Source: a virus. Taken from it: a stretch of DNA of 45,947 nucleotides. Within the stretch, counting starts at the first letter, position 1. Every line of letters begins with the position of its first letter. The translations under genes were made by a program, and so were the position numbers. Below the pieces are notes generated by a model. The model was given only the letters and a program-made list of their open reading frames with translations, made no database searches and was not told where the DNA came from. The stretch spans positions 1 through 45,947 of IMG/VR virus record IMGVR_UViG_3300037486_000223, one strand, 5' to 3'. Positions 19,780 to 25,015 of this stretch are shown here, one piece after another.

Positions 19780-21030
19780 TCAATCCTTTGGTCTATACTC
19801 GTAAATCACATTCTTGTTGTCATCCAATCCAATTGGGTGCATCACACCACCGAAATATTTATATGGACTTTTTGCGGAATTAGGTGAATTCCATATTTCC
19901 CGAATGTAATCATACAAAGACTGGTTCTGCCTTTCTGCTCGCTTTACAGCTCCCGTCGTATTGAAGCCGAGGGCCCGAACCCAACGTATGTCTTTGAACA
20001 TGGCTAGGTGTGGTTCCATCTCAGCCCACGTCACCCTTCCATTCTTCTTTGCTAGAACAAGAGCTTCGGTAAACTGACCACGAGCATACTTCCACGTTGG
20101 AGGCAAGCCACAACAAGAGCCATTATGACACTTCTCCTTGTGGTGTGCGTCACTGACATAGAATCTTAGTCCGCTTGCTTCGGCTTGGTCCCGCATTTCA
20201 TAAATGTACTTTTTCTTGATCTCGTAGTTCAGTCGGCTATAGCCAGAACCCCTAGAGTGCTCGGTGTAGAATTTTAGGATATCGAATCCGAGAAGATCCG
20301 ACATCTGCTTGTACCGACCCAATAGCCTCTCGTCTGCTCTACGCTCTAGGCAGAAGAACTCTGTACTCACAGCTCCTGCTCCGGCCTCTGCTGCCAGTTT
20401 TATCAGCTCTATGTGGTCATTGTCCTTATCTGACAAACCAATGATGAACGGACGCAGACGCAGAGTGGTTCCACCCTTATTCAGTTTCGACAACTCGGCC
20501 ATTGCAGCTAGGCGTTCCCTAGGTGACGGAACACCCAACTCCATCCGCTTTGCTCGCTTCTCGTCCAGACAAATAATGCTTATTTTCGTGTTCCAGTTGT
20601 CCTGATCCCGAAATAGTTCCCTGTATCTTTCGTCCTTCACCCACCACGTCGCCTTCGTACTGAAGCATAGCGGATAGTTTATTTCCTTGAAAAATTTCAG
20701 CAGCTCTAAAGTCTTTCCCTGCTCTTTTTCATTCATATCAAACTGGTCGGCTAATCCACCCCATTGCATTGTGATTCTATCTCGGATGTACGGAAAGAAC
20801 TGTCTGTAGTCTATTGGCAATGTGTCGTCTAGTGCAAACAACCTTCTGATTGTCTCTACGTTCACAGCCTCCGCAGCTTTCTTCTGGTACGAGCCAGTCA
20901 TTGTGTGCGACTTCTGGAAGAAAGAGAAACAGTAAAGGCAATTGTACGAGCACACGTCGTAAGTATCGAAGGTCAAAGGCATACTACAATCTAAAATTTC
21001 ACCCGACCAACGTGGACTAAAATAGGTCAT
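19780..21030 (-). CDS. radical SAM enzyme (SPL-like)
   Basis: The 416-aa enzyme has the 4Fe-4S cluster motif C-x3-C-x2-C at C27, C31 and C34 (VCSYNCLYCFS), which reductively cleaves SAM to start radical chemistry. Downstream are TIM-barrel features, and near the C-terminus CHNGSCCGLPPTW may hold an extra cluster. Overall it resembles the spore photoproduct lyase branch. Start MTYFSPRWSGE at 21030 overlaps the upstream stop (ATGA) behind AGGAG; longer frames run through the neighbour. The substrate is unknown; the cluster context suggests modified DNA base or sugar chemistry. Confidence 0.85.
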   Translation of the reverse strand: MTYFSPRWSGEILDCSMPLTFDTYDVCSYNCLYCFSFFQKSHTMTGSYQKKAAEAVNVETIRRLFALDDTLPIDYRQFFPYIRDRITMQWGGLADQFDMNEKEQGKTLELLKFFKEINYPLCFSTKATWWVKDERYRELFRDQDNWNTKISIICLDEKRAKRMELGVPSPRERLAAMAELSKLNKGGTTLRLRPFIIGLSDKDNDHIELIKLAAEAGAGAVSTEFFCLERRADERLLGRYKQMSDLLGFDILKFYTEHSRGSGYSRLNYEIKKKYIYEMRDQAEASGLRFYVSDAHHKEKCHNGSCCGLPPTWKYARGQFTEALVLAKKNGRVTWAEMEPHLAMFKDIRWVRALGFNTTGAVKRAERQNQSLYDYIREIWNSPNSAKSPYKYFGGVMHPIGLDDNKNVIYEYRPKD

Positions 21031-22043
21031 AACACTCCTGCCAACTGGTCTTCTATACCAGTATTTCGTTTGACGTTTACCGCAGCACACGACATATATG
21101 GATTTGTTAGAGAGTAGTCGTTTATTAGAATTCTTTTTGCGTGGAGCAATCCCATAACTAGAACATGGTACTTCACACCTTCCGAACTCAACTGGTCTTC
21201 CGTTATCTTTCTGTAAATTTCTGGTCTTGCTGTCACTAGCACAACTTGAGTCTTGCCAGTGTCTACAAGCGAATTGATGTACCTCACGTTCTCCAGTATT
21301 CCGGCTGTTTCGCCCCACTTTGGAGTTCCATACTCACCAGCGTTAAGCACCATCACCCCGTCTATGTCGATGAATAGTGTTCTGTATTTCGACCTGTATT
21401 TTTCCCAGACCTCTAGGTCTCCCCAATCAATGTAGCCTTCCACCATCTTAAATTTGAAGTCAATCCTACTCTTCATCATGTCTTTGATAACGTCAGAAAT
21501 GTAGAGCTTGCCTTGCGAGTAAAACAAGAATTGTAGAGCTGATAAAAACGAATACCCACCACAACAGAAGGTTGAACTTATAACCTTCTTTTCTACTATC
21601 TCGGTTATGTTTTCACCCTCATGCTTAACGTAGCTCTTACCCTCGTAGGCTATTCCACCGCCATCTAGGGAATAGGTGGAAACGTAGTTCCCCGGACATA
21701 CCTCAGTTTCAAAATAGTTGTCTGTATCCTTGACGTAGATTGGACCATCTATGTTGCAAACTTTTATCGCCTCGGCTACTGTTTCCACTTGCGACGACGT
21801 CTGGTGTTGCAGCACAACAATCTCAACATCTCTGTATTGAGACATAATGTTTTTCAGCTCTTGCTTGCTGAAGTCAGCACAGATCATTTTGTTTACCACT
21901 AGGTAAATCTTTTCGTAACCTCCACTCAGTCCAGTCAACGCTTTCTGTATCATCAATTTCCCAGATGGGTCTGTCAGAAGCCATTTCAATTTTCTTTTAG
22001 GAAACCTAGTGGACAGCCCACACGCTGGAACAATTATATTCAT
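21027..22043 (-). CDS. nucleotidyltransferase-HAD phosphatase fusion, 338 aa
   Basis: Residues 1-215 are a sugar-phosphate-type nucleotidyltransferase. The NTP loop is degenerate (MNIIVPACGLSTRFPKRKLK), the metal Asp lie in KDTDNYF (about 106-108), and WGDLEVW closes the domain. Residues 220-338 are a HAD phosphatase: D226-x-D228 (LFIDIDGV), Thr at about 271 (VTARPE), Lys at 303 and ND at about 308-309. It could make an NDP-activated headgroup and trim a phosphate. LicC-like choline or NDP-glycerol pathways use such pairs. It lies between the kinase and the radical SAM gene with 4-base overlaps. Confidence 0.82.
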   Translation of the reverse strand: MNIIVPACGLSTRFPKRKLKWLLTDPSGKLMIQKALTGLSGGYEKIYLVVNKMICADFSKQELKNIMSQYRDVEIVVLQHQTSSQVETVAEAIKVCNIDGPIYVKDTDNYFETEVCPGNYVSTYSLDGGGIAYEGKSYVKHEGENITEIVEKKVISSTFCCGGYSFLSALQFLFYSQGKLYISDVIKDMMKSRIDFKFKMVEGYIDWGDLEVWEKYRSKYRTLFIDIDGVMVLNAGEYGTPKWGETAGILENVRYINSLVDTGKTQVVLVTARPEIYRKITEDQLSSEGVKYHVLVMGLLHAKRILINDYSLTNPYMSCAAVNVKRNTGIEDQLAGVL

Positions 22044-22819
22044 AGTAGACCCCTCATAAAGTAACGTAGCTCATCAACAACCTTTGGATCTTTCGCATAC
22101 GGAATTATTCTTGCAAGATTTATGTATTGTAGCAGTCTAGAATACCCAAACCATTCTTCTTTGTCTATGGCACCTAAAATCACGTTCCGCATCACACCCA
22201 TTGCCCGATAAAACTCGATGTGAGTTGGAGAGTTGGAATAGCGTGTACTCCAGAAGTAATCCACGTCTTGGAACAGTTTTATATAGTCCATAACTGGACT
22301 CTCAATGTAAGAGTCAAGATGGTCTATCAGGTAAACTCCACCGCCATCCGCAAAGATCATATTAGAAAACGTCAGGTCTCCGTGACAGTATCCGCTAGGT
22401 AGTCTGATTGAAAATTTTCCAAGCCGCTTCAGCCTCTCAACTCCATCCATATCACCAATGGCAAACAGCTTCATCGACAACACTTCGTTTGTTACTATTG
22501 TATTTTTGGAACTCTTATTCCCCTCGATGAACTGCACTAGATTGTAGGCGAAGTTTAGAGCTGCATCTGGACGGCTAATCAGCCTGTCTATTGCCAGCTC
22601 TCCTCCAATGTATTCCATCTCAAGCTGCATCAAACCATCGTCGTTCATTTTCAGACCAGAGCGTGGAGTTCTAAACAGGGTTTTCGTCTGTCTAATTATC
22701 TTCTCATACGAGTTTGCAATCCTAATATTGTAGTCTTCGCTAGAGGAGGTCTTAACGACCAGATTTCCCCTACGCTCTAGCTTGCAACCAGAATGTCCAA
22801 TCAGTTTCATGTCACCCAT
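22040..22819 (-). CDS. APH/choline-kinase-like phosphotransferase, 259 aa
   Basis: The catalytic loop is YCHGDLTFSNM with Asp 148 and Asn 153, and the metal Asp follows in LIDHLDS at about 166. This is the aminoglycoside-phosphotransferase/choline-kinase fold. The N-lobe Lys region is LVVKTSSSEDYN. It should phosphorylate a small alcohol or sugar. Start MGDMKLIGHS at 22819 shares one base with the upstream stop (TGATG). Next to a nucleotidyltransferase-HAD fusion it probably supplies the phosphorylated precursor, as LicA does for LicC. Confidence 0.8.
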   Translation of the reverse strand: MGDMKLIGHSGCKLERRGNLVVKTSSSEDYNIRIANSYEKIIRQTKTLFRTPRSGLKMNDDGLMQLEMEYIGGELAIDRLISRPDAALNFAYNLVQFIEGNKSSKNTIVTNEVLSMKLFAIGDMDGVERLKRLGKFSIRLPSGYCHGDLTFSNMIFADGGGVYLIDHLDSYIESPVMDYIKLFQDVDYFWSTRYSNSPTHIEFYRAMGVMRNVILGAIDKEEWFGYSRLLQYINLARIIPYAKDPKVVDELRYFMRGLL

Positions 22820-24275: not shown

Positions 24276-24283
24276 AATTTACC

Positions 24284-25015
24284 TCAACAATATTCCATTA
24301 ATTCTTCTACGTCCATATCCTTGACCACGTTGAGCATCAGTCTAACGGCAGCCCATTGATTTTTAATTCCAACCTTCTTACAAACGCTGTCCACAGTGTC
24401 ATAAAACAGAACAGAATCAATCTTTGGTACATTGGTCATAATGATATCCGTAGTCGTGCTTTCCATTATGTTCAACTCAGCCTCATCGCTCATATCTATG
24501 TCTAGGCTGTCGTCTCTTGTTGTCTTTATTTTTGTTTCTATTTTCTTTAGAATTCTCGGATCAAGAACATCAGCTAGGTCAAACCCCTCTATGTTCTCAA
24601 ACTCCTCAACCAGCTTCTCTAGGTCGTATTGCCCCTCATGCTCGTTCTCCGACAGCTCTATAAACTTTGCCGTTCTTTCATCTATGTCGTAAACAGCAAC
24701 GTTCACATGGTCTATCTTGTAGCCTTCGTCCTCTACTAAAGAACGCATCACGGATAGCCTTTGGTTTCCCGACAGCACTACATTTCCGTTCCTCCAAACC
24801 TTGAGCGGCTCATACACGTTTTCCAGTATCTTTTTCTTTAGCCTAGCGAATCCTTTTTTCGTTAGCTTTCGCACGTTGGCCTGATTGTACGACAGCTCGT
24901 ACAATCCCATTTGCTTGTACTCTGGAGCAAGATATTTCAGAGTATTCTGGCCACTCTGTTTCGTCTCTTCCTCTGTAGACTTTGCGTCCATTCCCATCAC
25001 TATTTTTCTAGCCAT
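24284..25015 (-). CDS. ParB/sulfiredoxin-fold protein 1, 243 aa
   Basis: The ParB box is VLSGNQRLSVMRS at 80-92, with His of the usual GHxR replaced by Asn (GNQR). The segment before it is LKKKILENVYEPLKVWRNG, matching the neighbouring paralogue. The C-terminal half is acidic and helical. Tandem ParB paralogues at the top of the modification-like cluster may select or modify target sites. Good ribosome site (GGTGGGA). Confidence 0.75.
   Translation of the reverse strand: MARKIVMGMDAKSTEEETKQSGQNTLKYLAPEYKQMGLYELSYNQANVRKLTKKGFARLKKKILENVYEPLKVWRNGNVVLSGNQRLSVMRSLVEDEGYKIDHVNVAVYDIDERTAKFIELSENEHEGQYDLEKLVEEFENIEGFDLADVLDPRILKKIETKIKTTRDDSLDIDMSDEAELNIMESTTTDIIMTNVPKIDSVLFYDTVDSVCKKVGIKNQWAAVRLMLNVVKDMDVEELMEYC

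Follow-up and report, generated by a model that had tools for sequence, protein, structure and literature searches.

Thymidine hypermodification in phages M6 (5-(2-aminoethyl)-2′-deoxyuridine, 5-NedU), ViI (5-(2-aminoethoxy)methyl-2′-deoxyuridine, 5-NeOmdU) and PhiW-14 is thought to begin at 5-hydroxymethyl-2′-deoxyuridine (5hmdU), to which a 5hmdU DNA kinase adds a phosphate before further modification follows (PMC6449724). These phages possess their own thymidylate-synthase-type enzyme for 5hmdU, together with a P-loop kinase, an amino acid:DNA transferase (ADDT), a PALP enzyme and a SplB-like radical SAM enzyme (gp53 in M6). Other systems, such as those of phages Acadian, Prairie, Cr30 and S-CBWM1, of which base J of kinetoplastids is a functional analogue, join an enzyme of the TET/JBP type to a TET-associated glycosyltransferase (TAGT). 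The gene order is ParB, TET-like, TAGT, a PIG-L deacetylase gene and the small (TerS) and large (TerL) terminase subunits in Acadian, and ParB, TET-like, ADDT, TerS and TerL in JAMaL, while Rhodococcus phage Tonitrus, annotated for thymidine hypermodification, carries ParB, TET-like, aGPT-Pplase2 and 5-hydroxymethyluracil (5hmU) kinase genes (PMC11955845). Here we analyse a virus fragment of 45,947 bases (IMG/VR record IMGVR_UViG_3300037486_000223; this whole stretch is called the window), in which a minus-strand cassette at 19780-25015 encodes, in this order, two ParB-fold proteins, a TAGT, an APH-type kinase, a nucleotidyltransferase fused to a HAD phosphatase (NTase-HAD) and a SplB-like radical SAM enzyme (hereafter rSAM), followed by the terminase small subunit. 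Compared with Acadian, JAMaL and Tonitrus, rSAM loci of this kind look like the same systems with TET exchanged for rSAM. That the cassette is a DNA modification system can be held with high confidence; with more reserve, our favoured reading is that it glycosylates DNA pyrimidines after replication, with rSAM replacing TET or a hydroxymethylase.

Hydroxymethyl bases are known to come either from a thymidylate-synthase-related hydroxymethylase or from TET/JBP. In the window, TET/JBP (PF12851), thymidylate synthase (PF00303) and tRNA-guanine transglycosylase (TGT, PF01702) gave no match, in line with the first-pass annotation, made from the letters alone, which had noticed the absence of TET and of any base hydroxymethylase. 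This absence proved general in the rSAM family as sampled, since TET/JBP or thymidylate synthase was found in 0/23 distinct rSAM records (988 kb, comprising the window and 22 more). On the other side stand eight phages with a TAGT or a known or recognised thymidine hypermodification (M6, Marshall, PhiW-14, Acadian, JAMaL, Prairie, S-CBWM1 and Cr30), a comparison set of phages with TAGT or ADDT modules restricted to isolates: none of the eight is matched by the rSAM profile and all of them carry a TET/JBP or thymidylate-synthase-type enzyme, PF00303 being present in M6, Marshall and PhiW-14 and the PF12851 search detecting TET/JBP in Cr30 and S-CBWM1. A DpdA/queuosine-type modification was considered and rejected, as the window has no TGT and the "queuine" neighbours in mycobacteriophages match only Tet_JBP in Pfam. 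The mycobacteriophage genes annotated as queuine tRNA-ribosyltransferase at L001 (813-1691) and L064 (785-1759), whose Tet_JBP matches (1.4e-4 and 5.5e-6, respectively) lie below cutoff, are probably misannotated.

Relatives of the rSAM, sharing 38-64% identity, were found in 42 viral and 11 bacterial contigs (53 loci), and by tblastn in none of 50,697 phage records. Neighbouring genes were labelled by profiles built from seed proteins and by clustering, which revealed a ParB gene adjacent to the rSAM in nearly all loci, usually with TerS, TerL and portal genes downstream; in about 27 of them a TerS homologue comes next after rSAM, or after an rSAM-ParB pair. The survey of gene order in related phages that had been proposed at first pass thus returned a recurrent ParB-rSAM-terminase neighbourhood, accompanied by either TAGT or ADDT/P-loop kinase. 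Among 45 rows, a TAGT was nearby in 20 and a P-loop kinase and/or ADDT in 15, and in no row did both occur (0/45, Fisher 9e-6). Pfam supports the TAGT labels at 12 related loci, with three scores below cutoff; the ADDT corresponds to the Pfam Amino acid:DNA transferase (1e-18 at L007); the 5hmdU kinase/ADDT module is present in some 14-19 related loci, and 19 of the P-loop kinases within rSAM loci form one BLAST cluster. Module labels require 15 changes on the rSAM tree, indicating that decorating modules were exchanged repeatedly round a constant ParB-rSAM core. In this line, L022 and L048 have nearly identical rSAMs and, at the same site between ParB and rSAM, a TAGT and a kinase, respectively. 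As for the window itself, it differs from M6, ViI and PhiW-14 by having the glycosylation branch and lacking the kinase/ADDT pair: the ADDT profile had no match, and a P-loop match at 2451-2984 reaches only E 0.088 with Pfam HMUDK, which is below cutoff. This match was discarded as false or doubtful together with the other hits of our home-made P-loop-kinase profile outside rSAM loci, namely Acadian gp4 (a PIG-L protein) and one in Cr30.

The P-loop kinase, ADDT, PALP and SplB-like enzymes of M6, ViI and PhiW-14 have relatives in several of the new loci, although these three phages lack the new rSAM. Two loci contain the greater part of the M6 pathway. At L008 (same contig as L013) there are a second radical SAM enzyme 43% identical to M6 gp53, a PALP 47% identical to gp52, an ADDT weakly resembling gp51 and a P-loop kinase; L023 holds the same four families, and in both loci the new rSAM is an extra gene beside the gp53-like enzyme. 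No thymidylate-synthase homologue occurs in the records of these loci (G003 and G011). With an rSAM common to both branches and M6-like loci in whose records thymidylate synthase was not detected, the simplest account is that rSAM supplies the hydroxymethyl group or an equivalent. This argues, from a pattern of gene content, for rSAM being the entry enzyme in place of TET or hydroxymethylase, a role that we consider somewhat probable. The first-pass annotation had instead suggested that the rSAM remodels the sugar, which does not fit a family also found with amino-acid branches without sugar genes and with ParB alone; more probably, rSAM performs the initial step, with the base as its substrate. 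Some loci depart from these schemes. L010/L029, L014, L018/L019 and L035 encode further radical SAM enzymes, of B12-binding or SPASM type, and additional glycosyltransferase-like proteins, which suggests further undescribed base modifications. At L016, L017, L059, L061 and L062, where most have ParB, neither TAGT nor ADDT nor kinase was recognised around the rSAM, and these loci may represent a minimal module or have decorating genes that escaped recognition.

By sequence the rSAM is weak in Pfam (0.04), and its matches to the SplB-like NCBIfam families PA0069 (2.5e-12) and Rv2578c (8e-9) stay below curated cutoffs (46.5 bits vs 360 and 34.9 vs 430). A PDB sequence search with the rSAM profile yielded nothing relevant, while the fold search was successful: the AlphaFold2 (AF2) model (predicted local distance difference test, pLDDT, 92.8) found spore photoproduct lyase at the top of the Foldseek matches (4k9r 1e-8, 4fhf 9e-8), with TM-scores to 4k9r of 0.49/0.59 that indicate a related fold rather than a close relative. 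The fold matches include a structure with a bound dinucleoside spore photoproduct, and the substrate of spore photoproduct lyase is thymine in DNA. The rSAM shares fold and CxxxCxxC motif with the SplB-like enzymes, but only ~15-17% identity, and has an extra C-terminal part; C27, C31 and C34 are invariant in 45/45 sequences, and C15 and the C-terminal C306 and C307 are further invariant positions. An identification with M6 gp53 was rejected for want of significant similarity (E 0.12), even though gp53 belongs to the same broad SplB-like family. The 11 bacterial contigs come from Selenomonas, Prevotellaceae, Clostridia, Lachnospiraceae, Oscillospiraceae, Patescibacteria and others, in a database where gut genomes may be over-represented; L053, from Selenomonas ruminantium S137, has the kinase branch. 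We take all 11 lineages to be anaerobic, and the TET phages to infect aerobes or cyanobacteria. TET needs oxygen and radical SAM enzymes are oxygen-sensitive, so an rSAM in anaerobe hosts and a TET in phages of aerobes and cyanobacteria are what would be expected.

In the proposed mechanism the SplB-like rSAM, probably directed by the two ParB-fold proteins, would abstract a hydrogen from the 5-methyl of a phage-DNA pyrimidine, thymine being the likeliest, and leave a 5-hydroxymethyl. Kinase, HAD phosphatase and nucleotidyltransferase, to judge from their folds and recurrence, would make a nucleotide sugar, which the TAGT, as expected from its family, would move onto the hydroxymethyl group, so that virion DNA would be shielded from host nucleases. 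Thymine is the preferred target base. A broader proposal, which we advance tentatively and hold to be somewhat less probable, is that this phage family of spore photoproduct lyase-like enzymes hydroxylates the thymine 5-methyl in DNA, or functionalises it in another way, without oxygen and in place of TET/JBP and dUMP hydroxymethylase, as the common entry for sugar and amino-acid hypermodification in phages of anaerobes. It bears on how bases could be oxidised post-replicatively in phages of strict anaerobes, given the oxygen need of TET. If true, sugar and amino-acid hypermodification would be tied to one interchangeable scheme, modified virion DNA would be expected in many gut and rumen phages, and a possible oxygen-free tool for thymine functionalisation would be at hand. 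The system appears to be a variant of phage pyrimidine hypermodification not described before, and the rSAM step, if as proposed, would be new DNA chemistry; a literature search met no earlier proposal of this role, the primary hypermodification papers lying outside its reach, so that novelty is only partly checked.

The glycosyltransferase itself links the window to the TET/JBP-TAGT systems, with which it also has the ParB and terminase neighbourhood in common and in which the rSAM position is taken by the oxygen-dependent TET/JBP. PF20691 is its sole Pfam match (28.1 bits vs a cutoff of 27.5, 2.4e-6), and it matches phrog_25200 at 6e-22. Relatives found by tblastn among isolates belong to Acadian-like mycobacteriophages, Arthrobacter phages, Caulobacter phage Cr30 and Synechococcus phage S-CBWM1, whereas neither the window TAGT nor the kinase, used singly as query, had a match among viral contigs. 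It is 24-30% identical to the TAGTs adjoining TET in Acadian, S-CBWM1, Cr30 and Prairie; and in a tree, where the first-pass annotation had considered a grouping with capsule or lipopolysaccharide (LPS) enzymes, it clusters with TET-linked TAGTs (support 95/95). The two ParB-fold proteins are 29% identical to each other; Pfam ParB_N matched neither window gene, although PHROGs recognised both, and phrog_498, common to the two, is a methyltransferase with a ParB part. Homologues of ParB1 adjoin the rSAM in nearly all related loci, and those of ParB2 occur in L007, L008 and others.

The donor module seems to have a different history. The kinase falls just under cutoff for PF01636 APH (7.6e-5). 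Both domains of the NTase-HAD are weak in Pfam, and the HAD also in PHROGs; the nucleotidyltransferase is clear by fold, as the best Foldseek matches of the AF2 model (pLDDT 88) are NDP-sugar pyrophosphorylases (4evw 1e-13) and RmlA, and the HAD part conserves a DIDG motif at 226-229. In viral contigs a kinase homologue adjoins the NTase-HAD in 68/79 loci, with rSAM, TAGT or ParB in 0/79, and the two loci examined (AG-345-E15, that is L005, and L006) are phage glycan clusters, where an adjacent APH kinase and NTase-HAD, 40-41% identical to those of the window, have epimerases and glycan glycosyltransferases as neighbours but no ParB, TAGT or rSAM. Within the searched sets, this pair occurs together with rSAM/TAGT only in the window. 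The same activities recur beside TAGT in other forms: S-CBWM1, which has the same TAGT-HAD-nucleotidyltransferase-kinase set, arranges it as TET, TAGT, HAD, nucleotidyltransferase, kinase, and the gut loci L025 and L056-L058 have a kinase with N-terminal HAD and a CTP_transf_like nucleotidyltransferase, followed by TAGT, ParB, ParB and rSAM, with the same families at L028. At L058 the HAD is of the capsule-biosynthesis phosphatase type and the nucleotidyltransferase is closest to heptose-1-phosphate adenylyltransferase, whereas in the window the HAD is fused to a nucleotidyltransferase of another type. Three arrangements of one activity set point to a single pathway of nucleotide-sugar synthesis and TAGT transfer, which agrees with the activated donor that had been predicted from the kinase and NTase-HAD. 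The window thus joins a glycan-derived donor module to an rSAM/TAGT DNA-modification module, the pair looking as if borrowed from phage glycan clusters.

Several points weigh against rSAM as the source of the hydroxymethyl group. We met no precedent for oxygen-free methyl hydroxylation by a SplB-like rSAM, and the kinase-ADDT or TAGT module could take another functional group. The Pfam TET/JBP model has limited sensitivity, scoring Acadian, JAMaL and Prairie below its cutoff, so a divergent oxygenase could escape, and the result of 0/23 does not extend to ThyX and other hydroxylases, for which no search was made. Like most rSAM records, the window is a fragment; no record is marked as at least 90% complete, and a hydroxymethylase could lie outside. 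If every genome had an entry enzyme at a random position, all 23 records would miss it with a probability of 6e-10 when genomes measure 80 kb and of 6e-4 when they measure 160 kb, figures that kinship among the records makes optimistic. Moreover, the four TET phages were retrieved with the window TAGT as query, which biases the TAGT tree.

These fragments give room to an alternative in which the cassette modifies bases with the rSAM as a later tailoring enzyme, an isomerase or lyase like M6 gp53, and the hydroxymethyl base comes from outside the fragment, from an undetected enzyme or from the host. The M6 pathway does include a SplB-like radical SAM enzyme, and the M6-like second radical SAM enzyme is a weak match of the A3 profile. 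However, the new rSAM is accompanied by an amino-acid branch at some loci, by a sugar branch at others and elsewhere by nothing but ParB, leaving no constant adduct to be tailored; L008 and L023 already hold the gp53-like enzyme as a separate gene, and no record of the 23 has TET or thymidylate synthase, so that we regard this alternative as unlikely, although it deserves consideration. The rSAM and TAGT might also modify DNA at cytosine or another base, or the rSAM might add a group other than hydroxyl (e.g., a C-C, C-N or C-S link). Radical SAM chemistry is diverse, extra B12-type and SPASM-type genes accompany some loci, and methylcytosine may be the target in those TAGT phages that have TET. 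This we find improbable: no conserved cytosine methyltransferase was found in the rSAM neighbourhoods, and the partnership with ADDT and kinase speaks for 5-hydroxymethyluracil (PMC6449724).

The first-pass annotation had left the choice between a DNA base and a surface glycan, and it is the former that fits the rSAM, TAGT and ParB relatives in hypermodification loci near terminase. A role of the genes in making or altering surface glycans of the host or the phage (capsule, LPS or virion) is suggested by the kinase/NTase-HAD pair, which normally lives without DNA-modification genes and, in the two cases examined, within glycan clusters, as well as by a related HAD in prophages that matches a capsule-biosynthesis phosphatase family. 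Yet rSAM, TAGT and ParB are missing from all 79 of those loci, the glycosyltransferase matches only TAGT in Pfam and clusters with the TET-linked ones, the window has no gene recognisable as an epimerase, flippase or polymerase, and ParB, rSAM and terminase neighbours recur beside DNA-modification genes, making a glycan role for the cassette very improbable. Phages do carry unrelated cargo, and the exact pair accompanies rSAM only here, as would be the case if the co-linear genes had been assembled accidentally beside terminase; with tight overlaps, and with ParB-(TAGT)-rSAM-TerS recurring in dozens of loci, we give this hardly any credence. The cassette gene order recurs in unrelated phages, which indicates that the grouping did not arise by chance.

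All six genes of the minus-strand cluster described at first pass were confirmed (Table 1). The reported overlaps of 1-4 bases hold at every junction except ParB1/ParB2, with a gap of 8 bases: they amount to 4 bases for ParB2/TAGT, kinase/NTase-HAD and NTase-HAD/rSAM, and to a single base for TAGT/kinase, where the kinase probably starts at the ATG that has one base in common with the TAGT stop. The rSAM start was corrected to ATG 21030, replacing a 512-aa GTG frame, and the true ATG of the terminase small subunit, which lies directly downstream, is probably 19777.

Table 1. Genes of the cassette and the adjoining terminase gene, with the basis of each assignment
Feature	Position	Strand	Basis
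ParB-fold protein 1, 243 aa	24284..25015	-	PHROG ParB families 2.4e-12; phrog_498 3e-13
ParB-fold protein 2, 213 aa	23634..24275	-	PHROG ParB 6e-11; phrog_498 3e-18
TAGT (TET-associated glycosyltransferase), 272 aa, GT-A like, invariant D91-D92	22819..23637	-	PF20691
APH-fold small-molecule kinase, 259 aa from ATG 22819 (probable start)	22040..22819	-	PF01636
Sugar-1-phosphate nucleotidyltransferase fused to HAD phosphatase, 338 aa	21027..22043	-	AF2 model, Foldseek
SplB-like rSAM, 416 aa, CxxxCxxC at 27/31/34	19780..21030	-	NCBIfam, AF2 model, Foldseek
Terminase small subunit	19232..19783	-	phrog_6299 3e-18

Upstream of the cassette are RuvC-like, SbcC-like, SbcD-like, UvsX, DNA polymerase, primase, DnaB and helicase genes. 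Close to it, also on the minus strand, are a cold-shock-domain gene (18949-19263, PF00313 3e-7), an RNA-ligase-like gene (13087-14259, phrog_14301 9e-9) and an open reading frame (ORF) at 18180-18641 with a hydrophobic N-terminal segment followed by a long Lys/Pro/Gln/Ala repeat tract, which is resembled by a repeat ORF at L008 (6257-6979). Inteins or intein-like ORFs were seen in two settings: at L007 (1-2588), as judged by eye, two intein-like ORFs adjoin the cassette, one of them in a probable ribonucleotide reductase, and in the window an HNH-type intein splits a helicase gene (41556-43841, minus strand) at approximately residues 126-399 (intein_Nterm 1.3e-7, intein_Cterm 5.5e-4).

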